64,000 bases of DNA. Source: Lysobacter sp. Lineage in GTDB: Bacteria; Pseudomonadota; Gammaproteobacteria; Xanthomonadales; Xanthomonadaceae. The notes under the pieces were generated by a model. The model saw only the letters and a list, made by a program, of their open reading frames with translations. It was not told the DNA's origin and made no database searches. The DNA lies in the NCBI GenBank assembly GCA_011526085.1, contig WYBC01000025.1:1-64000 (forward strand), read 5' to 3'. Shown here piece after piece: positions 1 through 14,667 of this stretch (position 1 is its first letter; every line of letters begins with the position of its first letter). Both the position numbers and the translations under genes were made by a program.

Positions 1-175
1 GGGCGGCCCCGCCCCCCGGGGGGGGGCCCCGGGGGCCCTTTTGTTCTGCCCCCCCCCCCCCCCCCCCACCCCCCCGGGCCGCCCGCCCGGGGCGCCCCCC
101 CCTCGACGCTTCCGCAAGCCCGCGCATGACCTCCGGCGGCTTCGCGTGCAGGCCCGCCTCCGCTACTCTGTCGCC
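1..175. other. G/C-homopolymer contig end, no gene supported
   Basis: The first ~110 bases consist almost entirely of runs of C and G, including a C run of about 20 at 48-67. This is unlike any other part of the window, where high GC comes from codon bias rather than homopolymers. A reading frame can be drawn through it (Pro-rich), but only because CCC codons contain no stops. It most likely reflects poor sequence at a contig end. The reliable sequence begins around 110-120, just before the first gene. Confidence 0.7.
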
Positions 176-604
176 ATGACCGCATCCCCCGCTTCACCGG
201 CCGTACCGCGCACGCGCGTGGTCGCGCCCGCGCTGCTGCTCCTGCTCGGCATCTTCGGCATGAGCGCGATCTGGACGCTGCTGGCGTTGATCGTCGACAA
301 ACAATGCGCCTGGATCGCGGTCATCACGGCCGCGGACCTGGCGCTGCTGCTGCGTCTTTCCCATGCTGCCCCCGGCCTACCGCGCGCATTCGTGACGCTC
401 GCCGCGACGCTGGCCACGATCCTGATCTCGAACTGGACCATCGCCGCCACCCAGATGGGCGGGCCGATGGGGTTGCCGCTGGTCGATTCCGTGCAGCGGC
501 TCGGCACCGACCACGGGCAGACCCTGATGCTGCTGGCCAATCAGCCCGCCGAGTGGGCGTGGTACGCGGTCGCGGCGATCGTGGCGCTGTGGCTGGGGCG
601 TTGA
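176..604 (+). CDS. Small hydrophobic membrane protein, unknown function
   Basis: Predicted 142-aa protein with about four hydrophobic segments (roughly residues 16-36, 43-58, 65-85 and 125-140), so an inner-membrane protein. I do not recognise the family. The ATG at 176 is preferred over the longer in-frame extension back to 41, because that extension is an artefact of the C-rich contig end. The stop at 604 sits directly against the stop of the convergent gene on the minus strand (606). No catalytic motif is visible, and neighbours give no clear functional hint. Confidence 0.6.
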   Translation: MTASPASPAVPRTRVVAPALLLLLGIFGMSAIWTLLALIVDKQCAWIAVITAADLALLLRLSHAAPGLPRAFVTLAATLATILISNWTIAATQMGGPMGLPLVDSVQRLGTDHGQTLMLLANQPAEWAWYAVAAIVALWLGR

Positions 605-605
605 A

Positions 606-1076
606 TCAGACCGGCGCGGCGCCGGAGAAGGCGTAGCCGGCGGCGATCAGCGCGATCAGGAACCAGATGCCGATGTGCCACAGATTGGCGCGTTCGGTGC
701 CCGGCAACACCACCGCGCGCTGCGGGCGCTTCGGGTCGTAGCGCACCTCGATCGTCTGTCCCTTGCGGATGCCGGACAACAGCGCGTACGCCTCGCGCTC
801 GCCCAGACCGCGCGCGGGACGATAGGTGAAGTGCCGGGAGCGATGGCGCGTGCCGGCGACGACGTAGTCGTAGACCAGATGCGCATCGGTGGAGACGTAA
901 TGATCGCCATCGGCATCGGTTTTTTCCTGCGCATCGAACCAGACATCCACGACCGTGCCCTGGGTCCGGCGCCAACGCCGCGAAGCCTCGCCCAGCGCAT
1001 ACCGCCGCCCATGCCAGAGCGCCATGCCCAAGGCGACGGCCGCGACGATCAACGGGATCCAAGGCGTCGCGCTCAT
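606..1076 (-). CDS. DUF3592-type membrane protein
   Basis: 156-aa protein with an N-terminal membrane helix (about residues 7-22), a central soluble region with the pattern of DUF3592 proteins (a TxGTVVDV-like strand, then a YDPKRPQRAVV stretch) and a C-terminal helix (about 134-152). The architecture of two helices bracketing a small beta-rich domain is the usual one for DUF3592, whose role is unknown. The start codon overlaps the stop of the upstream DUF1295-like gene by 4 bp (ATGA at 1073-1076), so the two are probably translationally coupled. Family assignment is by eye. Confidence 0.7.
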   Translation of the reverse strand: MSATPWIPLIVAAVALGMALWHGRRYALGEASRRWRRTQGTVVDVWFDAQEKTDADGDHYVSTDAHLVYDYVVAGTRHRSRHFTYRPARGLGEREAYALLSGIRKGQTIEVRYDPKRPQRAVVLPGTERANLWHIGIWFLIALIAAGYAFSGAAPV

Positions 1077-1792
1077 GGCACGTCCTCACGCGCGGCCGAT
1101 GCGATCGCGGCACGCGGGAACAACAGTCCGGTGCGCGCCCGGTAGGCCGACCACCCCGGATGCCGCGCCATCCGCGCGTCCTTGTGGAGCATGTTCGGCA
1201 GGAACACGCCTCCCCATACCCAAGCCAGCACCAGCCACGGCAACCAATGCCCGGCGACGACGGCGAACGCGGCGTAGAGCATCATTTCGCCCAGATAATT
1301 CGGATTCCGCGTCCGCGCGAAGAAGCCGTCGACGATCAGCCCCGGCCGCGCGCGCAGCACGAAATACTTCTGCGCATCGGCACCGACCATCAGCGCCAGC
1401 CCGATCGCATACAACAGCACCGCGCCGCCCAGCACCGCCGGCGGCTGTTCGATCCGCTGGCTGACGATCAGCCAGGGCGCGATCCAGTACGGCCCGAGCA
1501 CGAACAGCCAAGCGTTGAGCGCTCCGCCGAGCGTGACTTTCTTCTCCCAGGACGGATCGGGAAAGATCGCGTCCTTCAGCAGCCACACCAGTCCGTAGCT
1601 GCCGTGCAGGCCGAGATAGACCCAGGCCGTCGGCGTCCAGCAGTCGTAGGCCCACATCAACGCGAGCACGAACGGCAGGGTGCCGCCTTTCTGCAGGTTG
1701 ATCGCCGATGCGAAGCGGATCCGCGGGCCGCCGAGGAAATCCTCGGTGAGGTGGTCGCGGACGCGGAAGAATCGGTCGAGGACAGGGCGCAT
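1073..1792 (-). CDS. DUF1295 / isoprenylcysteine-methyltransferase-like membrane protein
   Basis: 239-aa polytopic membrane protein with several hydrophobic segments. Near residues 160-175 it has the motif ARTRNPNYLGEMMLYAAFA, which matches the SAM-binding NPxYxGE-type signature of DUF1295, steroid 5-alpha-reductase-like and isoprenylcysteine carboxyl methyltransferase families. The C-terminal region (W-x-x-Y followed by RTGLLFP) also fits. The substrate cannot be deduced. It is first in a two-gene operon with the DUF3592 protein and is divergent from the flavoprotein gene at 1889, with about 96 bp between them for both promoters. Confidence 0.75.
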   Translation of the reverse strand: MRPVLDRFFRVRDHLTEDFLGGPRIRFASAINLQKGGTLPFVLALMWAYDCWTPTAWVYLGLHGSYGLVWLLKDAIFPDPSWEKKVTLGGALNAWLFVLGPYWIAPWLIVSQRIEQPPAVLGGAVLLYAIGLALMVGADAQKYFVLRARPGLIVDGFFARTRNPNYLGEMMLYAAFAVVAGHWLPWLVLAWVWGGVFLPNMLHKDARMARHPGWSAYRARTGLLFPRAAIASAAREDVP

Positions 1793-1888
1793 GCCGCGAT
1801 GCTATCGCGAACGGTGCACGCCCGCGCCGGGCGTGTCGCGATGCGGGCCGCGAAGGCACAATGCCTGGCTCCTCCTCGGAATCCGCCC

Positions 1889-3973
1889 ATGCGCGACCCC
1901 CGCTACGACATTCTTTTCACGCCGATGCGGATCGGACCGGTGACGGCGAAGAACCGGTTCTTCCAGGTGCCGCACTGCAACGGCATGGGCCATGCGATGC
2001 CGCTGGCGCATGCGGCGATGCGCGAGACCAAGGCCGAAGGCGGCTGGGCGGTGATCTCGACCGAGGAGTGCGAGATCCACCCTTCCGGCGATGTCTCGCC
2101 CTATGTCGAAGCCCGGCTGTGGGACGATCGCGACATCCCCGCACTCGCCCTGATGTGCGACAAGGTCCACGCGCACGGTGCACTGGCGGCGGTGGAACTC
2201 ACCCACAACGGCCCAACCGCGTCGAATCTGTATTCACGCGAGGTGCTGATCGCGCCTTCGCACCAGCCCTCGAAATACGGCTATCCGGCGCAGGCACGCG
2301 CGATGGATCGCCGGGACATCGCGAATTATCGACGCTGGCATCGCGACGCCGCGCTGCGCGGCATGCGCGCGGGCATGGACATCGTCTACGTCTACGCCGC
2401 GCACGACCTGTCGCTGGCGATGCATTTCCTGCAGCGCCGGCGCAACCATCGCAGCGACGAATACGGCGGCACGCTGGAGAATCGCGTGCGCCTGCTGCGC
2501 GAAGTGCTGGAAGACACGAAGGAGGCGGTCGGCCATCGCTGCGCGGTGGCGATCCGCTTCGCTACCGAAGAACTGCTGGGGCCCGCCGGCGTCGAACGTG
2601 CGGAAGCGCAGGACATCGTCGGCATGCTCGCCGAGATCCCCGACCTGTGGGACGTGAATGTCGCCGCCTGGTACAACGATTCGGTGCCCTCGCGTTTCGC
2701 GCCGGAAGGGGCGCAGGAGCCCTTCATCGATTTCGTGAAGAAGACCACCAGCAAACCGGTGGTCGGTGTCGGCCGTTTCACCTCCCCGGACACGATGGTG
2801 TCGCAGCTCCGGCGCGGTGTGATCGACTTCATCGGCGCGGCGCGGCCCTCCATCGCCGACCCGTTCCTGCCGAAGAAGATCGAGGAAGGCCGGATCGACG
2901 ACATCCGCGAATGCATCGGCTGCAACATCTGCGTCTCCGGCGACAACACCATCACCCCGATCCGCTGCACCCAGAATCCGACCATGGGCGAGGAATGGCG
3001 CCGCGACTGGCACCCGGAAACGATCGCACCGGCGAAGTCCGCGGCGAAGGTGCTGGTGATCGGCGGCGGCCCCGCGGGCCTGGAAGCGGCGCGCGCGCTG
3101 GGCCAGCGCGGCTACGAGGTGCATCTGGCCGAAGCGCGGCGCGAACTCGGCGGCCGCGTCACCCGCGAAGCGCGCCTGCCCGGGCTGGCGGAATGGGCGC
3201 GCGTGCGCGACTGGCGGCTCGGGCAGATCCGGAAGATGCAGAACGTCGCCACGTATCTCGATTCGGCGCTGACCGCGCAGGACGTGCTCGACTTCGGCGC
3301 GGAGCACGTGATCGTCGCCACCGGCTGCCACTGGCGTCGCGACGGCGTCGGCCGCAGCCATGGCGAACCGATTCCCGGCTTCGTCGACAACCCCGCTGTC
3401 TTCACCCCCGACGACATCATGGACGGACGCCTGCCCGACGGGCCGGTCGCGATCTACGACGACGACTATTTCTATACCGGCAGCACGGTCGCCGAAGCGC
3501 TGCGCAGGGCGGGACGCGAAGTGGTCTACGTCACGCCGGACGACACCGTCGCCTCCTGGAGCGCGAACACCCTCGAATACCGTCACATCCAGTGGCGGAT
3601 GGCCGAACTGGGCATCGAGCAGAACGTCTCCCACGACATCCACGCCTTCGCGGACGGCGCGCTGGACCTCGAACAGGTCTGGAACGGCCGGCGGCGGAGG
3701 CTCGACTGCGCCGCGGTGGTCGCGATCACCTCGCGCCTGCCCGACGACGCGCTGTATCACGCGTTGGCGGCGCGCGAAGCCGAGTGGGCCGACGCCGGTC
3801 TGCGCACCGCGACCCGGATCGGCGACTCGCTGGCGCCCGGGCTGATCGCCCACGCGGTCTACGCCGGTCATCGCGCCGCGCGCGAGCTGGACGAAACGCC
3901 GGCGGGCGAAGTGCCGTTCAAACGTCACTTCCATACGCCGCGGGAAACCGACCTGCTGCGCCCGGGCGCCTGA
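1889..3973 (+). CDS. Trimethylamine-dehydrogenase-family FMN/4Fe-4S oxidoreductase
   Basis: 694 aa, with an OYE-type TIM barrel (residues 1-340), a 4Fe-4S motif and a C-terminal FAD/NAD-like domain starting at the dinucleotide motif IGGGPAGLEAA (about 391-401). The layout follows trimethylamine dehydrogenase (TMADH) closely. Cys30 in QVPHCNG corresponds to the cysteine that carries covalent 6-S-cysteinyl FMN. The cluster cysteines are C342, C345, C348 and C360. The catalytic triad Tyr169, His172, Asp264 is present. However, the TMADH aromatic substrate bowl is altered: Glu60 replaces Tyr, Gly351 replaces Trp, and only Trp261 remains. It is therefore probably an amine or other N-methyl-compound dehydrogenase with a different substrate. 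The comparison uses remembered family sequence, not an alignment. The start at 1889 gives the family N-terminus. Confidence 0.88.
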   Translation: MRDPRYDILFTPMRIGPVTAKNRFFQVPHCNGMGHAMPLAHAAMRETKAEGGWAVISTEECEIHPSGDVSPYVEARLWDDRDIPALALMCDKVHAHGALAAVELTHNGPTASNLYSREVLIAPSHQPSKYGYPAQARAMDRRDIANYRRWHRDAALRGMRAGMDIVYVYAAHDLSLAMHFLQRRRNHRSDEYGGTLENRVRLLREVLEDTKEAVGHRCAVAIRFATEELLGPAGVERAEAQDIVGMLAEIPDLWDVNVAAWYNDSVPSRFAPEGAQEPFIDFVKKTTSKPVVGVGRFTSPDTMVSQLRRGVIDFIGAARPSIADPFLPKKIEEGRIDDIRECIGCNICVSGDNTITPIRCTQNPTMGEEWRRDWHPETIAPAKSAAKVLVIGGGPAGLEAARALGQRGYEVHLAEARRELGGRVTREARLPGLAEWARVRDWRLGQIRKMQNVATYLDSALTAQDVLDFGAEHVIVATGCHWRRDGVGRSHGEPIPGFVDNPAVFTPDDIMDGRLPDGPVAIYDDDYFYTGSTVAEALRRAGREVVYVTPDDTVASWSANTLEYRHIQWRMAELGIEQNVSHDIHAFADGALDLEQVWNGRRRRLDCAAVVAITSRLPDDALYHALAAREAEWADAGLRTATRIGDSLAPGLIAHAVYAGHRAARELDETPAGEVPFKRHFHTPRETDLLRPGA

Positions 3974-4197: not shown

Positions 4198-5373
4198 ATG
4201 TCCGACATCGTCATCGTCGGTGCGAAGCGCACCGCCATCGGTTCCTTTCTCGGCCAATTCACCGGCGTCCCCACCCCCACCCTCGGCGCCGCGGCCATCG
4301 CCGGCGCGCTGGACCACGCCGGCGTGGCCCCGGATCAGGTCGACGAAGTCATCATGGGCTGCGTGCTGCCCGCCGGGCTCGGCCAAGCCCCGGCCCGCCA
4401 GGCCGCCCTCGCCGCGAAGATCCCCACCGCCGCCGGCTGCACCACCATCAACAAGGTGTGCGGCTCGGGCATGAAGGCGATCATGTTCGCCCACGATCTG
4501 ATCAAGGCCGGCTCGGCCCGGGTGGTCGTCGCCGGCGGCATGGAATCGATGACCAACGCCCCGCATCTGCTGAACGGCTCGCGCACCGGCATCCGCTACG
4601 GCAGCGGCGAACTGCTCGACCACATGGCCTGGGACGGCCTGACCAATCCCTACGACAAGCAGGCCATGGGCGTCTTCGGCGATGCCGCCTGCGCCAAGTA
4701 CGGTTTCGACCGCGCCGCCGTCGACGCGTTCTCGGCCGAAAGCGTCGCCCGCGCCCAGAAAGCCATCGCCGAGGGTGCGTTCCGCGACGAAATCGCGCCG
4801 GTTACGGTGGTTACACGCAAGGGCGAGAGCATCGTCGACACCGACGAGGAACCCGGCAAGATCGACTCCTCGAAGATCCCGACCCTGCGTCCGGCGTTCG
4901 GCAAGGAAGGCGTGCTCACCGCCGCATCCTCGTCGAAGATTTCCGACGGCGCCGCCGCGACCGTGGTGATGTCGAGCGATGAGGCCGCGCGCCGCGGACT
5001 GCAGCCGCTCGCGAAGATCGTCGCGCACGCGACGCATGCGCAGGCGCCCGAATGGTTCACCACCGCACCGGTGACCGCGATCGCGAATGTGCTTGAAAAA
5101 GCGGGCTGGAGCGTGGGCGACGTCGATCTGTTCGAAGTCAACGAGGCGTTCGCGTGCGTCGCGATGGCGCCGATGAAGGACCTCGGCATCGCGCACGAAA
5201 AATTGAACATCCGCGGCGGTGCGTGCGCGCTCGGACATCCGATCGGCGCCAGCGGCGCGCGACTGGTGGTGACCCTCATCGCAGCGCTTCGCGCCACCGG
5301 CGGCAAGCGCGGCGTGGCCTCGCTGTGCATCGGTGGCGGCGAAGCCACCGCGATCGCAGTGGAGCTCCCATAA
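4198..5373 (+). CDS. Acetyl-CoA C-acyltransferase (thiolase II type)
   Basis: 391-aa thiolase, the normal length for acetyl-CoA acetyltransferases. The nucleophilic Cys88 lies in NKVCGSGMKA. The NEAFA loop, the GHPIGASGAR histidine motif and the C-terminal CIGGGEA cysteine motif are all intact. It condenses two acetyl-CoA or cleaves acetoacetyl-CoA/3-ketoacyl-CoA in the cytoplasm. Downstream genes in the window for leucine breakdown end in acetoacetate plus acetyl-CoA, so a role in using acetoacetyl-CoA is plausible but is inferred from the neighbourhood. The gene stands alone, preceded by 224 bp of non-coding sequence. Confidence 0.93.
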   Translation: MSDIVIVGAKRTAIGSFLGQFTGVPTPTLGAAAIAGALDHAGVAPDQVDEVIMGCVLPAGLGQAPARQAALAAKIPTAAGCTTINKVCGSGMKAIMFAHDLIKAGSARVVVAGGMESMTNAPHLLNGSRTGIRYGSGELLDHMAWDGLTNPYDKQAMGVFGDAACAKYGFDRAAVDAFSAESVARAQKAIAEGAFRDEIAPVTVVTRKGESIVDTDEEPGKIDSSKIPTLRPAFGKEGVLTAASSSKISDGAAATVVMSSDEAARRGLQPLAKIVAHATHAQAPEWFTTAPVTAIANVLEKAGWSVGDVDLFEVNEAFACVAMAPMKDLGIAHEKLNIRGGACALGHPIGASGARLVVTLIAALRATGGKRGVASLCIGGGEATAIAVELP

Positions 5374-5510
5374 GACGATGTAACGGACAAACCGGACGAA
5401 ACCGGCCACCCCCGCTTGACAGCCGTTGCCGGCTTGTCATCATGGAGCCCAAGACGCTTCCGGGCGTCCCCAGCAAACGCACTACCCACCCATTCACGAG
5501 GATCGACACC

Positions 5511-5870
5511 ATGACCCTGAACAAGGCTCTGCTCGCCCTGGCCCTGGGCTTCGCCCTGACCGCCTGCACCAACAAGGACCAGGCCGCCGATTCCGCCGCC
5601 GAAGCCGCTGAAGCCGCCACCGAGGCGACCGAAGCCGCTGGCGACGCCGCCGCTGCCGGCGACAGCGCCGCTGCCGACGCCGCCCAGGCCGCCGCCGAAT
5701 CGGCCGCCGCCGCCGCCGACGCCGCGACCGCCCAGGCCGCCGACGCCGCCGCTGCCGGCACCACCGCCGCTGGCGACGCCGCCGCCGACGCCGCCGAGAA
5801 GGCCGCCGACGCTGCCGAGTCCGCCGCCGACGCTGCCGGCGAAGCTGCCGACGCAGCCAAGAAGAATTGA
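5511..5870 (+). CDS. Ala-rich small lipoprotein, paralogue 1 of 3
   Basis: 119-aa predicted lipoprotein. A short signal peptide ends in LTAC with the lipidated cysteine at residue 19. The mature part is almost only Ala, Asp, Glu and Gly in an irregular 3-4 residue alternation (AADAA, AEKAADAAES), which predicts a long helix or coiled coil, and it ends in AKKN. It is the first of three tandem paralogues (next at 6075 and 6750) that share signal-peptide length, cysteine position and composition. A terminator hairpin at 5927 follows. The overall design resembles the Lpp/OprI type of envelope lipoprotein, but this copy ends in Asn, not Lys. Function unknown. Confidence 0.8.
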   Translation: MTLNKALLALALGFALTACTNKDQAADSAAEAAEAATEATEAAGDAAAAGDSAAADAAQAAAESAAAAADAATAQAADAAAAGTTAAGDAAADAAEKAADAAESAADAAGEAADAAKKN

Positions 5871-5926
5871 TTCAGTCGACCGGTTCAGTTGGGCTTCACA
5901 TCGCTGAATTGGTTGCTACAATGAGG

Positions 5927-5953
5927 AAGCCGCAAAATCATCTGCGGCTTTTT
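5927..5953 (+). terminator. Rho-independent terminator after lipoprotein 1
   Basis: Stem AAGCCGCA (5927-5934) pairs with TGCGGCTT (5943-5950) around an 8-base loop and runs into a T tract (5949-5953). It lies 57 bp after the stop of the first Ala-rich lipoprotein. Confidence 0.85.
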
Positions 5954-6074
5954 CATGGTGCTGGCAAGCACCAAGTAAGTCAGTGAACGAACACAAGCCG
6001 GCTCTCGCCGGACTGCCCCGCGCACTGGCGTTGCCTGACCCCTGTTTTTTCAGACAACTCCTTTGGAGAAAAGC

Positions 6075-6419
6075 ATGAACACGAAGCTTTACGTCCTCCT
6101 GGCCGCCGGCGTCCTCGCTCTGTCGGCTTGCAACAAGGCCGAAGAAACCGCTGACGCCTCCGCCGAAGCCGCCACCGAAGCCGCCGACGCCACCGCCGAC
6201 GCCGCTGCCGCTGCCGGCGACGCCGCCGCCACCGCCGCCGACGCCGCTGGCGACGCCGCTGCCGCCGCTGGCGACGCTGCCGCTGCCGCTGGCGACGCCG
6301 CTGCCGCTGCCACCGACGCCGCCGCTGCTCCGGCCGACGCCGCTGCCGCTCCGGCCGACGCCGCTGCTGCTCCGGCCGACGCCGCTGCCGCTCCGGCTGC
6401 CGAAGAAGCCAAGAAGTAA
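6075..6419 (+). CDS. Ala-rich heptad-repeat lipoprotein, paralogue 2 of 3
   Basis: 114-aa predicted lipoprotein with lipobox LSAC and Cys19. The mature region contains clear seven-residue repeats: three units of the AGDAAAA type followed by units of the ADAAAAP type. At the DNA level the latter are three near-identical 21-bp copies at 6327-6389. The protein ends EEAKK. A heptad pattern with Ala at core positions and a C-terminal Lys pair is what one would expect of a Braun-lipoprotein-like trimeric coiled coil. That functional link is inference, since no known family signature is visible. The ATG at 6075 follows GGAG at 6064-6067. Three stacked terminator hairpins follow the gene. Confidence 0.8.
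   Translation: MNTKLYVLLAAGVLALSACNKAEETADASAEAATEAADATADAAAAAGDAAATAADAAGDAAAAAGDAAAAAGDAAAAATDAAAAPADAAAAPADAAAAPADAAAAPAAEEAKK
6327..6389 (+). repeat. 21-bp in-frame tandem repeat in lipoprotein 2
   Basis: Three copies of a 21-bp unit starting GCTCCGGCCGACGCC (6327-6347, 6348-6368, 6369-6389), each coding APADAAA. They differ by one base in the last codon. The unit length equals one protein heptad, so copy-number change by slippage would lengthen or shorten the coiled coil without altering its phase. Confidence 0.9.
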
Positions 6420-6749
6420 TTCTTGCTTCCAAGGTTGTACCCAGAAAGACCCGCCTCGGCGGGTCTTTCTTTTTGGGCCCGATGACCCGCTCCGGCGGGT
6501 CATTCTTTTTTGATCTGACGCCCCGCCTCGGCGGGTCTTTTCATCTCTGGAGGCGGCCAGCGCCCCGGATCGCCATCGTGCGGATCGAACGCGGGACCAT
6601 GCAGTTCGCAAACCGGTGGTGCGGCGCGGCCTGGCGCTCTAGTATCGGCGGCGCGACGAGGGGGGATCGGCGCCCGGCGACAGACGCCGTCACCGCCGGA
6701 TCCCGAGACCCGATGCCGCCACGCACATCCCATGCACTGGAGAATCCGA
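6420..6749 (+). terminator. Intergenic region with three consecutive terminator-like hairpins
   Basis: 330 bp between lipoproteins 2 and 3. Hairpin 1 has the stem GAAAGACCCGCC (6445-6456) pairing with 6459-6470 and then a T tract to 6475. Hairpin 2 has ATGACCCGC (6482-6490) with GCGGGTCAT (6495-6503), followed by TCTTTTTT. Hairpin 3 has CCCGCC (6522-6527) with GGCGGG (6530-6535), followed by TCTTTT. All three share the GACCCGC core. The rest (about 6545-6735) shows no gene or motif that I can support and presumably holds the promoter of lipoprotein 3. Confidence 0.8.
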
Positions 6750-7130
6750 ATGAACCGTCAGCTCTTAGTCCTGCTCGCCGCAAGTGTGTTCGCGCTGTCG
6801 GCCTGCAAGAACGAAACCGAGACCGCCCAGAACGAAGCGGCTGAAGCCGCCGCCGCGATGGACCAGGCCGGCGATGCCGCCGCCGATGCCGCCAAGGCCG
6901 CCGGCGATGCCGCGACCCAGAGCGTCGACGCGGCCGCTGCCGCGACCGGCGAAGCCGTCGGCGAAGCGACCGCGACCGTCGACGAAGCCGCCGACAAGGC
7001 CGCCGCTGCCGCCGCGGAAGCCACGGCGGGCGCAGCGGATGCTGCCGCCAACGCCGCGAACAAGGTCGCCGACAAGGCCGACGCGATGGCCGACAAGGCG
7101 AACGCCGCCGCGGAAGAAGCCAAGAAATAA
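6750..7130 (+). CDS. Ala-rich small lipoprotein, paralogue 3 of 3
   Basis: 126-aa predicted lipoprotein with signal peptide ending LSAC and Cys19, exactly as in paralogue 2. The mature part is Ala/Asp/Glu-rich but less repetitive, and contains [22 protein letters not shown] at its end, a good amphipathic helix with a C-terminal Lys pair. GGAG at 6739-6742 supports the ATG at 6750 rather than the in-frame ATG at 6732. It is followed by its own terminator at 7156. With paralogues 1 and 2 it forms an array of three independently terminated genes. Function unknown; an Lpp-like envelope role is only inferred. Confidence 0.8.
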
Positions 7131-7155
7131 GCCGGATCCTGTCCGGGCGTCACCG

Positions 7156-7185
7156 AGAGACCCGCTGCGACGGGTCTCTTCTTTT
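7156..7185 (+). terminator. Rho-independent terminator after lipoprotein 3
   Basis: Stem AGAGACCCG (7156-7164) pairs with CGGGTCTCT (7171-7179) around a 6-base loop, followed by TCTTTT. The GAGACCCG core matches the stems after paralogue 2. Confidence 0.88.
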
Positions 7186-11294: not shown

Positions 11295-11492
11295 ATGAAA
11301 GAAGCCACGACGTCGACGCATCCGCAGTCATCGGAGCAGGATGACGCCCTACCGCCTGAGGCGTCGGCGGGCCCCGACTGGAGCCAACTGGTATTCGCAC
11401 CCAGGCCCAGGACCGAGCTGCCGGACGAAATACCGCCATGGATGGAGCGCGTTTTATCGATCCTGATGCGTTTTTCCCTGATGAAACCGTAG
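11295..11492 (+). CDS. Small acidic protein between hscC and the J-like genes
   Basis: 65-aa predicted protein, Pro/Glu-rich at first and then with a short amphipathic C-terminal segment (PPWMERVLSILMRFSLMKP). It is preceded by a good Shine-Dalgarno sequence (GGGAG at 11284-11288) with suitable spacing to ATG 11295. It ends 2 bp before the J-like gene, so the spacing is that of an operon member. I recognise no family. A small adaptor or membrane-associated peptide of the chaperone module is possible, but this is speculation. Confidence 0.55.
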   Translation: MKEATTSTHPQSSEQDDALPPEASAGPDWSQLVFAPRPRTELPDEIPPWMERVLSILMRFSLMKP

Positions 11493-11494
11493 GC

Positions 11495-13123
11495 ATGCAC
11501 GATCCCCTGCAGCGGCTGGGCCTCGGCCCGGACGCCGACGAGCGCGCCATCAAGCGCGCCTACGCGGCGAAATTGAGGATCACGCGGCCCGAGGAAGATC
11601 CGCAGGGCTTCCAGGCGTTGAACGAGGCCTATCAGGCCGCGCTGTCTTGGCATCGCGCGCGGGAAGCGGGCGAATTCGACCATGCATTCGACGACAGCGG
11701 CGAGCCCGACGCCGACGCGACGGACACGGTGCCAGCCGTCGTCATCGACACCCGCACCGCCAGTTCCGCCCGTGAAGTGCCCGCACCGGAAGCGACGCCC
11801 GGCACCATGTCGGTGCCGCCTCCCGAAACCATACCGGCGCCGACACCGGTCGCGTCCGCAGACGAAGCGACCGCAAACGACAACGGAAGTGAAAGCGAAG
11901 GCGAACCATTCGACGTGGAACGGTTCTTCGACGACTGTTTCGCCGCCGCGCGCGACGGCGATCCGCGGGTGATCGATCGTTGGCTCAACGCACAGCCGAT
12001 CCTGTGGTCGCTGCAGCACAAGGCGACGATCGGGCACTGGCTGCTGCGCGCGATGCACGAGCGCACCCCGCCGATGCCGGACCGCAGTTTCGACCGCATC
12101 GCCCAGTTCTTCGGCTATCACGAACTGCACGGCGGCTACGACCCGCTGGCGCTGCAGGGCCTGCGGGCGCGGGTGAACGACGCCTGGCGCTGGACCCGGC
12201 AGGCGAGCCAGCCACCTCCCGTCGCGCGCCGCGTCGAACCTCCGGATACCGGAAACGATCCCGAGACCTTGCGCAGGCGTCGCGAGACCGAGGCCATGCT
12301 CGCGGTCGCCCGCCAGCATCCGCATCTCGCGCGCGCGGAGTCGATCGCCTCCCTGCTCTGGCTCGCGCTCGATCCCTGGCAGGCCGCATCGATCAGGTGC
12401 CTGCTGCAGACGATCGGCGGCGACGGGATGGACATGAATGCGCTCCCGCCCCGGATCGACCGCGCGCAGGCGCGTTTCTGGCGCGCCGTTACGGATCCCG
12501 CGCGCCTGTCGCCGTGGCGCCTGCTTGTCGGCGTGCTGCGCAGCGCGGTCGCCGCGCTCGGCATCGTCGCCATCGTGGTCGCGGGCACGCTGTTGCTCGC
12601 GCCGGGCACGTTGGGCGGTCTGGATACGCTGGGCGATGTATTCGTCTCGTGTTTTTCCGCATTCACCGGCATTTGGCTGGCCTATGCGACGCTGCGGGCG
12701 TTTCTGCACTGGCAGTCGCGTCCGGACCCGGAAGCGCTCTGGCATCGCATGCTGCACCGGATGGCAGTCCCTGCGCTCCTGCTGGCCGCCGGCGCCGGCA
12801 CGATGCAGTCCGAAGCGAGCCCCTTGCCGATCCTCTTCAGCGTATTCGCGCTGGTCGCCGCGATCATGCGTAGAGGCGCAGCCGGAACGGCCTCGACGCC
12901 GGCGAGGTTGCCGCGCTGGATCAGGGCGAACATGCACTGGCAGCATGGCTTCCTGCTGGCGATCCTCGGGCTCGCGACCCTGCCCGCGCTCCTGATGTCC
13001 GAAGGCTTCCATGCCCTCGTGCTGGCGGTGGTGTTCCTGATTTCCATCGTCGTCTGGGCACTGGACCTGCGCAGGCGCATGCGTCTTTCGCGCAGGAAAA
13101 CACCGTCGGAGCCGCAGTCGTGA
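11495..13123 (+). CDS. Membrane J-like co-chaperone (DjlB/DjlC type), HPD replaced
   Basis: 542 aa. Residues 1-50 resemble J-domain helices II-III (DERAIKRAYAAKLRIT, then QGFQALNEAYQAAL). At the position of the invariant HPD loop the sequence is Arg31-Pro32-Glu33, followed by an acidic stretch. A low-complexity Pro/Glu/Thr region (about 75-140) separates it from a middle domain around an FFDDCFAAARDGD motif. The C-terminal 200 residues have four to six hydrophobic segments. The pattern matches membrane J-like partners encoded with HscC. The start at 11495 is chosen because it directly follows the small gene and gives the J region at the N-terminus. The gene overlaps the next one by 4 bp (GTGA). 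Confidence 0.75.
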   Translation: MHDPLQRLGLGPDADERAIKRAYAAKLRITRPEEDPQGFQALNEAYQAALSWHRAREAGEFDHAFDDSGEPDADATDTVPAVVIDTRTASSAREVPAPEATPGTMSVPPPETIPAPTPVASADEATANDNGSESEGEPFDVERFFDDCFAAARDGDPRVIDRWLNAQPILWSLQHKATIGHWLLRAMHERTPPMPDRSFDRIAQFFGYHELHGGYDPLALQGLRARVNDAWRWTRQASQPPPVARRVEPPDTGNDPETLRRRRETEAMLAVARQHPHLARAESIASLLWLALDPWQAASIRCLLQTIGGDGMDMNALPPRIDRAQARFWRAVTDPARLSPWRLLVGVLRSAVAALGIVAIVVAGTLLLAPGTLGGLDTLGDVFVSCFSAFTGIWLAYATLRAFLHWQSRPDPEALWHRMLHRMAVPALLLAAGAGTMQSEASPLPILFSVFALVAAIMRRGAAGTASTPARLPRWIRANMHWQHGFLLAILGLATLPALLMSEGFHALVLAVVFLISIVVWALDLRRRMRLSRRKTPSEPQS

Positions 13124-14667
13124 ACTGGGCCCTGCGCCGCCTCGGCCTGCGCGCCGATGCCGACGAGCGCGCGGTCAAGCGCGCGTATGCGGCGCAGTTG
13201 AAGACGACGCGGCCGGAGGACGATCCGGAAGGCTTCCAGTCGCTCAACGAAGCCTATCGCGCCGCGCTGGCGTGGGTGCAGTCGAGGCCGCCGCAGGTGC
13301 ATGTCGAGGATGACGCGGCTGCGCGCGACGACGCGTCGCAGGTCTCGATCGAGACGGACGCAGCGTCCATCGAACTGCCTCCGGACGTGCTGGCCGCGCT
13401 GCAGGACATCGATGCGCAGGTCGAAGCTGCGCGGGCGCTGCTGGATCGCGTGCAGCCGAACGACACCGCTGCCGCCGGCGCGTCCGCGGGCGTTGCCGCG
13501 CGGATCGACGATGCGGATGCGTTCGACGCCGCCGCATTGCTCGACGAATGCATCGCGCAGGCCGTCCACGGCCGCGATGGCGATCTCGAACGCTGGCTGC
13601 ATGCGCAACCGGCGCTGTGGTCGCTGTCGCGCAAGGCGCAGATCGGGCAATGGCTGGTGCGGCAGTGGCAGGTGCGGCGCCCGCCGATCCAGGCGCAACG
13701 CTTCGATGTCGTCGCCGATTTCTTCGGGCTGCTCGATCTGAACGGCGAACACGACGCCTACACGATCCACCGCCTGCGCCACCGCCTGCATCTGGCGTGG
13801 GAAGTGCAGACGAAGCAGATGCGCGCGCTGGCCGAACGCACCGGCCAGGACGGCGGCAGCGTGGCTTCCAACCTGCGCCAGACGGCCCGCATCCTGCGTC
13901 AGCTCACGCGGCCGTTGCAGTGGCCGCAGGCGCTGTGGGCCGGATTGATGCCCGGCTATCCGACGGCGGTGCGCAAATTCCTGCAGCATCTGGATTATGG
14001 CGATCTCGACGATCTGCCGCCGCCGATCCGCGAGGATCAGGTCGCGTTCTGGGACGCCGCCGGCGACCGCGCGCGTCTGTCGAAGCCGCGCTGGGCGGTG
14101 TCGATCGCGCGGCTGTTCGCGTATTCGACGTTGATCACCCTCGCGTACGCGGGATTGCTGACCCTCCTGCACCGCCAGGACAGCGCCGGCGATGTCCTGC
14201 ACGGACTGTCGTGGCCGCTGTTCGCGGCGGCCGCGTTCGCGCTGCTGGGCTCGGTCTGGCTCGGCCAGCTCGCGTATCAGGGCTTCGCGCGCTGGCAGGC
14301 GCTGGCGGACGACGAGGCGTCCGCGCCGCGGTGGCACGCCGCCGCGATCCCGTTATTGACGGCCCTCGCCATGGGCCTGCTCTGGACCGCGCCCGGCGAC
14401 GGCGTCGCCGCGGGTGTCGCGGTCGGCCTGCTGCTGGTGTTCGCCGGCATGGCCGCCTGGGTCCGCCATCGCGAACGCAGCGGCCCACCGCTCGGCCGCC
14501 ACATCGGTTTCTGGCGGGCCGCATTCCTGCTGTTGATGACGCGCACCGCCGGCGACGCATTCGGTTGGTTCGATGATGCGGGTTTCCTTGCGTTGATCGC
14601 CGGTGCCATCCTTTTCGTCTGGGCCAAGGACCTGTGGATCCAGCGACGCGCACGCACGAATTCATGA
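13120..14667 (+). CDS. Second membrane J-like co-chaperone, paralogue of the preceding gene
   Basis: 515 aa, starting at GTG 13120 inside the GTGA overlap with the upstream gene. The N-terminal region is a clear paralogue of its neighbour (LGLRADADERAVKRAYAAQ; NEAYRAALAW), again with Arg31-Pro32-Glu33 in place of HPD. The middle region contains LLDECIAQAVHGRDGD, equivalent to the neighbour's FFDDCFAAARDGD, followed by ALWSLSRKAQIGQWL. The C-terminus has about six membrane segments (from residue ~325). Presumably it anchors an HscC complex at the inner membrane; the two paralogues may give different client selection. That role is inferred from known DjlB/DjlC-HscC pairing. Confidence 0.75.
   Translation: MNWALRRLGLRADADERAVKRAYAAQLKTTRPEDDPEGFQSLNEAYRAALAWVQSRPPQVHVEDDAAARDDASQVSIETDAASIELPPDVLAALQDIDAQVEAARALLDRVQPNDTAAAGASAGVAARIDDADAFDAAALLDECIAQAVHGRDGDLERWLHAQPALWSLSRKAQIGQWLVRQWQVRRPPIQAQRFDVVADFFGLLDLNGEHDAYTIHRLRHRLHLAWEVQTKQMRALAERTGQDGGSVASNLRQTARILRQLTRPLQWPQALWAGLMPGYPTAVRKFLQHLDYGDLDDLPPPIREDQVAFWDAAGDRARLSKPRWAVSIARLFAYSTLITLAYAGLLTLLHRQDSAGDVLHGLSWPLFAAAAFALLGSVWLGQLAYQGFARWQALADDEASAPRWHAAAIPLLTALAMGLLWTAPGDGVAAGVAVGLLLVFAGMAAWVRHRERSGPPLGRHIGFWRAAFLLLMTRTAGDAFGWFDDAGFLALIAGAILFVWAKDLWIQRRARTNS

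Follow-up and report, generated by a model that had tools for sequence, protein, structure and literature searches.

Introduction

OprI is an alanine-rich lipidated helix. Lpp is 78 residues long in most species and keeps to a very narrow length window, with values of at least 99 residues at the upper end (PMC8824477). It is not settled how bacteria that lack an obvious Lpp secure their outer membrane and set its spacing, and a locus on contig WYBC01000025.1 of Lysobacter sp. (assembly GCA_011526085.1), within the 64,000-nucleotide stretch that we analysed and refer to as the window, gives testable candidates. It carries three consecutive genes, P1, P2 and P3, for small alanine-rich proteins with a lipoprotein-type signal, and a predicted structured leader RNA in front of P2. 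The genes had been noticed in an earlier sequence-only reading of the DNA, which described them as an array of Lpp-like coiled-coil lipoproteins; the leader had not been seen, and it is the strongest and least expected result of the present analysis. A gene-specific structured leader, one per genome, offers a compact handle on the control of an envelope lipoprotein.

The leader RNA of gene 2

When the spacers of the seven loci with three gene copies were aligned, the region before P2 proved to be conserved far beyond the spacer between P2 and P3. The core of this region reads GUCAGUGAACGA...CCGGC....GCCGG...GCGCACUGGCGUUGCCUGA...UCAGACAACUCCnnnGGAG...AUG (recovered by pattern in 12 of 54 loci, with a mean column identity of 84%), and it is predicted to form the helices GUCAGUG:CACUGGC and GUUGcCUGA:UCAGaCAAC, a CCGGC hairpin, and a last hairpin, CUCC-nnn-GGAG, which would pair the Shine-Dalgarno sequence some 5-7 nucleotides before the start codon. 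The consensus fold has 25 pairs, and the stretch 5928-6080, which includes two further hairpins upstream, folds 3.36 standard deviations below its shuffles. An alternative pairing of CAGUGAACG with CGUUGCCUG is visible by eye, in columns that hardly vary.

A covariance model of the leader, R1, matched 54 of 247 genomes of the family, with one match in each, and 4 of the 250 genomes of an order-wide draw, all of them within the same family; because strict filters were used in both searches, these counts are lower bounds. The leader precedes an alanine-rich lipoprotein gene in 54 of 54 cases (52 complete proteins, and 2 on truncated contigs with the same beginning), and a thiolase gene, a carboxyltransferase gene or both lie near it in every one. 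R1 found no second leader copy in the genome of the window; an additional match in L160, at 25 bits, was regarded as probably due to chance and was excluded from the pair count.

The alignment of the 54 sequences has 51 distinct rows, in which 96.1% of the cells are paired, compared with at most 37.7% in slid controls. Changes to both partners occur in 8 pairs, whereas shuffled controls average 1.4 such pairs and slid controls give 1-6. The hairpin that lies upstream of the leader, known from seven sequences, has three pairs that change on both sides in L040. The conserved block stands in all three phases relative to an upstream GTG (23, 13 and 12 of 48 scorable loci, 6 of the 54 not being scorable), and therefore what is conserved is RNA rather than peptide; an upstream open reading frame or leader peptide was rejected, its reading frame not being kept.

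Rfam 15 gave no match near gathering in the window, the best matches in the leader region falling far below, and no gathering match in the loci of the 5 of 54 leader genomes that were scanned. A 16-bit match to sX6 in the window was taken as chance; sX6 is described as encoding a protein (PMC5559785). Our literature search returned no paper with two of the leader core strings, as DNA or RNA, and none that describes the leader in its title or the opening of its abstract. Given its position, structure and compensatory changes, the leader is probably a structured cis-regulatory element, and as such may regulate expression of P2.

Organization and conservation of the locus

The features of the locus are listed here in window coordinates.

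4198..5373, + strand: flanking thiolase-type gene, synteny anchor
5416..5443, + strand: promoter-like site of P1, TTGACA-N16-CATCAT, a pattern match only
5511..5870, + strand: P1, alanine-rich lipoprotein, 119 residues, Cys19, C-terminus KKN
5895..5922, + strand: promoter-like site of P2, TTCACA-N16-TACAAT, with TG preceding the second box, likewise only a pattern match
5927..5950, + strand: terminator-like hairpin and T-tract after P1, close to where the P2 transcript is predicted to begin
5957..5972, + strand: upstream leader hairpin, GGTGCT-GGCA-AGCACC
5975..6077, + strand: leader RNA of P2, predicted to be structured (model R1), with a conserved core that starts at 5979, ending at the ATG
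6075..6419, + strand: P2, alanine-rich lipoprotein, 114 residues, Cys19, C-terminal 7-residue ADAAAAP repeats, ending KK
6444..6469, + strand: first terminator-like hairpin after P2
6481..6504, + strand: second terminator-like hairpin after P2 (36-bp tandem unit)
6522..6535, + strand: third terminator-like hairpin after P2
6750..7130, + strand: P3, alanine-rich lipoprotein, 126 residues, Cys19, ending KK
7155..7180, + strand: terminator-like hairpin after P3
7285..8892, + strand: flanking carboxyltransferase gene, synteny anchor

We take the first flanking gene to be of the thiolase type and the second to be of the methylcrotonyl-CoA carboxylase beta type, judging in both cases from sequence resemblance.

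Using these two genes as anchors we scored 54 loci, that of the window included, from 59 genomes searched (again with its own); G005, G009, G017, G049 and G051 were left out, an anchor being missing or at a contig edge. The sequence-only reading had proposed a homologue search with a copy count, and this revealed a paralogous array of one to three copies per locus: three in 7 loci, two in 14, one in 11 and none in 22, although at least L071, L072 and L076 among the last run off their contigs, so that absence there is not shown. Since alanine-rich lipoprotein genes occupy the same locus in 32 of 54 cases, they constitute a conserved family, within which P1, P2 and P3 are, judging from their sequences, paralogues. 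Of the 32 positive loci, 28 have the genes between the two anchors in the expected order (the stretches of L049, L052 and L077 lack one anchor, and the L046 gene is located past the carboxyltransferase), and the locus is kept across genera, which is more than chance would give. All seven three-copy loci, the largest arrays seen, belong to the genus of the window; loci from other genera usually contain one or two copies. With P3 as the query, matches were found in 24 of 59 genomes, and in its own genome P3 matched just P1-P3 themselves at E<=0.001. The second gene of two-copy loci was classed as P3 by position, and the P3 class therefore includes genes with a leader as well as genes without one; L046, with its single gene, was also placed there.

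The promoter-like site before P2 is conserved in the seven three-copy loci, but a strict extended -10 pattern matches in just 17 of 54 leader loci, and we therefore restrict the promoter claim to the three-copy loci. A palindrome, TGACAGCCG..CGGC-T-TGTCA (5417-5439), overlaps the -35-like box of P1; it is kept in most of the seven three-copy loci and broken in L040, and it is possibly an operator. The genes had also been described as each carrying its own terminator. Hairpins do follow each gene, three of them after P2, and in relatives 50 of 60 array genes have a terminator-like hairpin behind them; separate termination is itself a deduction from these patterns. Two of the five named hairpins, those at 6481 and 6522, were among the 6 sites of a consensus scan with shuffled controls, and the others came from a looser scan that had none. 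The tandem 36-bp terminator-like units after P2 span 6448-6540, and the other six three-copy loci have one hairpin listed there.

Elsewhere in the window an Hsp70 gene (PF00012; 9577-11268) is followed by genes at 11438-13123 and 13120-14667, whose products have no Pfam match at E<=0.01; their N-termini look J-domain-like, with RPEEDP-type residues where HPD would stand.

Properties of the encoded proteins

The description of three forward-strand open reading frames with 18-residue signal peptides, a lipobox cysteine at position 19 in each and bodies rich in alanine, aspartate and glutamate was borne out. The bodies are acidic and contain 47-61% alanine (55% in P1, 61% in P2, 47% in P3). Across 60 array genes the cysteine falls at position 19 in 49 and at 12-22 in the others, with script-chosen start codons. 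Mature length is 81-111 residues in P1, 68-111 in P2, 81-114 in P3 and 76-129 in single-copy relatives (68-129 overall), mature net charge in array proteins runs from -3 to -29, and a mature protein has 0-10 large hydrophobic residues in P1, P2 and P3 and 2-16 in single-copy relatives.

A heptad coiled coil had been read as a trait common to all three proteins. In P2 the alanine period is 3.5 (polar period about 3.6), and its heptads are therefore real; at the DNA level Tandem Repeats Finder gave a period of 21 across 6160-6390, and three 21-bp copies are present at 6327-6389, although they are not all exact as had been stated, the middle copy differing in its last base. In P1 and P3 orthologues, on the other hand, polar residues recur every 3.65-3.67 positions (11/3; for P3 a power of 12.7 vs 0.97 shuffled), and a heptad common to the three was not confirmed. 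Escherichia coli Lpp, used as a control, gave periods of 3.5-3.55 with polar, hydrophobic-plus-alanine and leucine-type sets. For LIVMF residues alone its period was 3.5 with a power of 11.6, compared with 3.6 and 4.1 for P3 and no signal (power at most 0.9) for P1 and P2.

The helical nature ascribed to the bodies agrees with AlphaFold2, which predicted long helices for both proteins modelled: one helix at 2-112 in P2 (mean predicted local distance difference test score, pLDDT, of 89) and helices at 2-64 and 68-125 in P3, with a break at 65-67 (mean pLDDT 66.5), each from a 4-sequence alignment. Among the 52 complete leader-linked proteins, however, 10 contain at least 10% proline and 40 at most 2%, and helical and proline-rich bodies therefore appear to replace each other.

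GCG accounts for 3% of the alanine codons in P1, 0% in P2 and 27% in P3, against 34% in 20 ribosomal open reading frames of the same genome, P1 and P2 using almost exclusively GCC and GCT. Because the avoidance of GCG in P1 and P2 exceeds that of the ribosomal genes and P3 hardly shows it, we do not take codon usage to demonstrate high expression.

Relationship to Lpp and OprI

Profile searches did not place the proteins in either family. PF04728 (Lpp) had no match to P1-P3 at E<=1 in Pfam, none in their genome at E<=0.1 and none above the curated cut-off in any of the 59 genomes, compared with 1 of 14 control genomes above it. Similarly, PF11839 (alanine zipper/OprI) matched neither P1-P3 nor, at E<=0.1, anything in their genome, and nothing above its cut-off in the 59 genomes. 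P1-P3 stay below the cut-offs of all Pfam and NCBIfam families, and a sequence search with P3 found no solved structure at E<=1. Homology to Lpp and OprI by profile was thus rejected; moreover, the leucine-type heptads of Lpp (period 3.5) were not found in P1-P3, and neither their own lengths nor the mature lengths in relatives keep to the narrow Lpp range. Of the proposal that the proteins are Xanthomonad counterparts of Lpp or OprI, the lipobox and the predicted helix stand, a C-terminal lysine is frequent in the leader-linked proteins but less so by array class, and the family relationship is not borne out. The Lpp reading is therefore mostly not supported and holds in part, as an analogy; the observation of a three-gene array is confirmed in part, with the corrections given above.

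Some weak profile matches were obtained. P3 matched Apolipoprotein at E 0.056 (13.6 bits vs a cut-off of 90), as did, below threshold, 4 of the 22 members of alignment A1 and 2 of the 31 of A2 (best E 1.6e-05). We read these, together with matches to YtxH, LptM, conotoxin and others, as effects of composition, though the 11-residue period does fit the apolipoprotein class.

Weak PF04728 matches led instead to a separate lipoprotein of 80-90 residues in relatives (alignment A5), which has leucine heptads and an ANQRLD stretch that also occurs in E. coli Lpp; its match to PF04728, at E 5.1e-05, is below cut-off. A profile of six A5 proteins, all ending in PRG, gave strong matches at 9 loci in 8 of the 59 genomes and two further matches (E 0.002 and 0.0095), while the 11 genomes from the genus of the window gave none. 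A gene with an HGCIN motif lies just downstream in 9 of 9 loci, an assignment by motif only; this motif is typical of L,D-transpeptidases. With these features the lipoprotein and the L,D-transpeptidase-like gene make a better candidate counterpart of Lpp than do the alanine-rich array proteins. All 8 genomes are in the synteny set, and 7 also have an alanine-rich lipoprotein at the thiolase/carboxyltransferase locus; the contig of the eighth, G025, stops 277 bp short of the carboxyltransferase gene. The A5 pair thus offers a natural comparison, as the window's genus is without it (0 of 11 genomes) yet has the largest arrays.

The observations on the A5 lipoprotein and HGCIN gene come from stretches L058, L059, L060, L061, L064, L065, L104-L111 and L114. 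In the genome of the window itself, L056 has two adjoining L,D-transpeptidase-like genes at 99-836 (-) and 886-2013 (-), the second of them YkuD by Pfam and the first presumably of this type, judging from its SFGCPAVR stretch.

Discussion

We favour the reading that the locus encodes abundant alanine-rich envelope spacer lipoproteins, with gene 2 under translational control by its leader, which work in a somewhat Lpp-like manner outside the Lpp and OprI families, and we put its probability at about 0.5. The proteins would be lipid-anchored, acidic rods or polymers, probably held in the outer membrane with their bodies reaching into the periplasm, where they may form a spacer or brush that lies between this membrane and the cell wall; they are likely made in large amounts. 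Translation of P2 would be low when the Shine-Dalgarno-pairing hairpin and the GUUG.CUGA:UCAG.CAAC helix are formed and high when these open, and temperature, a small RNA, a ligand or a protein might be the trigger that sets P2 output. The hairpin at 5927-5950 may in addition protect the 5' end of the P2 transcript. With somewhat less confidence, a little short of even odds, we propose that the leader represents a new cis-regulatory class, present as a single copy per genome in some members of one family, that responds to cell or envelope state and so determines how strongly a major alanine-rich outer-membrane lipoprotein, replacing or supplementing the Lpp spacer, is translated.

Several observations weigh against the spacer reading. 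The abundance of the proteins is a guess, and we infer lipidation, localisation and expression; given that the avoidance of GCG is stronger than ribosomal in P1 and P2 and weak in P3, codon bias is no clean signal of abundance. Alanine-rich helices are easily over-predicted, and the AlphaFold alignments of P2 and P3 held 4 sequences each. The leader alignment was fitted to the R1 model, which biases it toward pairing; since many positions of the leader do not vary, the pairing is supported by a small number of changes, and the highest slid control had 6 double-changed pairs against the 8 observed. A consensus terminator scan of both strands gave 6 sites, barely above the 2.5 (standard deviation 1.8) of shuffled sequence. 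Finally, the frequent C-terminal lysine could mean covalent tethering rather than a free brush.

This last point leads to an alternative that we consider unlikely, in which an L,D-transpeptidase joins the C-terminal lysine to peptidoglycan and so binds the outer membrane to the wall. As had been reported, two of the proteins (P2 and P3) end in Lys-Lys, and a C-terminal lysine is found in 40 of the 52 leader-linked proteins (37 as Lys-Lys), including at least 5 of the 10 that are proline-rich; moreover, the genome of the window has two YkuD-type L,D-transpeptidases, which therefore allow for a murein link. By array class, however, the lysine is present in just 9 of 21 P1, 4 of 7 P2, 12 of 22 P3 and 1 of 10 single-copy proteins, a set that overlaps the 52, and in both sets neighbours are related and the counts not independent. 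P1 here ends in Lys-Lys-Asn, the mature lengths of 68-129 residues contrast with the 78 of Lpp in most species (PMC8824477), and neither flanking gene is an L,D-transpeptidase, although no search for one was made elsewhere around each array.

A second alternative, that the leader serves to stabilise the mRNA or to attenuate transcription rather than to switch translation, strikes us as unlikely too, and marginally more so. It builds on the hairpin at 5927-5950, near the predicted +1 and ending in a T-tract, and on the promoter-like box that immediately precedes it in the three-copy loci. A hairpin with T-tract precedes the leader in 45 of 54 loci when sought by pattern without a control; a stricter scan found 24 of 54, missing the window's own hairpin because that hairpin pairs away its T-tract, and a TANNNT-type box precedes 10 of these 24 (shuffled mean 3.4, maximum 8). 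The hairpin is, on the other hand, already accounted for as the P1 terminator, and conservation is strongest farther downstream, in the part that finishes with the Shine-Dalgarno hairpin.

The remaining alternatives concern the protein bodies. That they are acyl-anchored alanine/proline/glutamate repeat polymers like the Neisseria H.8/Lip antigen, perhaps surface-exposed and with exact sequence of little weight, fits the ADAAAAP repeats of P2 and the runs such as AAPAE in the proline-rich leader-linked proteins, but is very unlikely given the proline-poor majority. It is equally improbable that they are amphipathic helices like late embryogenesis abundant (LEA) proteins or apolipoproteins, protecting or binding membrane under stress, since for all the 11-residue period and the sub-threshold Apolipoprotein matches the nonpolar face is nearly all alanine, large hydrophobics are as few as given above, and the window proteins lie below every Pfam and NCBIfam cut-off.

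Comparison with known systems

P1-P3 resemble Lpp in being small, in their lipobox and predicted helix, and, for two of the three, in a C-terminal lysine, but P1 and P3 have a period of 11 rather than 7, there is hardly any leucine-type core, length is loose and some orthologues are proline-rich. With OprI they share an alanine-rich predicted helix and a lipobox, whereas PF11839 is without a match above cut-off in the genomes searched. The A5 protein is likewise a small lipoprotein of the same bacterial family, and differs from P1-P3 in its leucine heptads, its near-match to PF04728, its adjoining HGCIN gene and its absence from the window's genus. The likeness to the H.8/Lip antigen lies in an acyl anchor with low-complexity alanine/proline/glutamate repeats in some orthologues; most leader-linked proteins are without proline. 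Although the P2 leader matches no family of Rfam 15 and occurs in one copy per genome before one gene, it has the makings of the leader RNAs that mask a Shine-Dalgarno sequence, such as riboswitches, thermometers and protein-binding leaders: a structured 5' leader, a conserved core and a Shine-Dalgarno sequence in the terminal hairpin.

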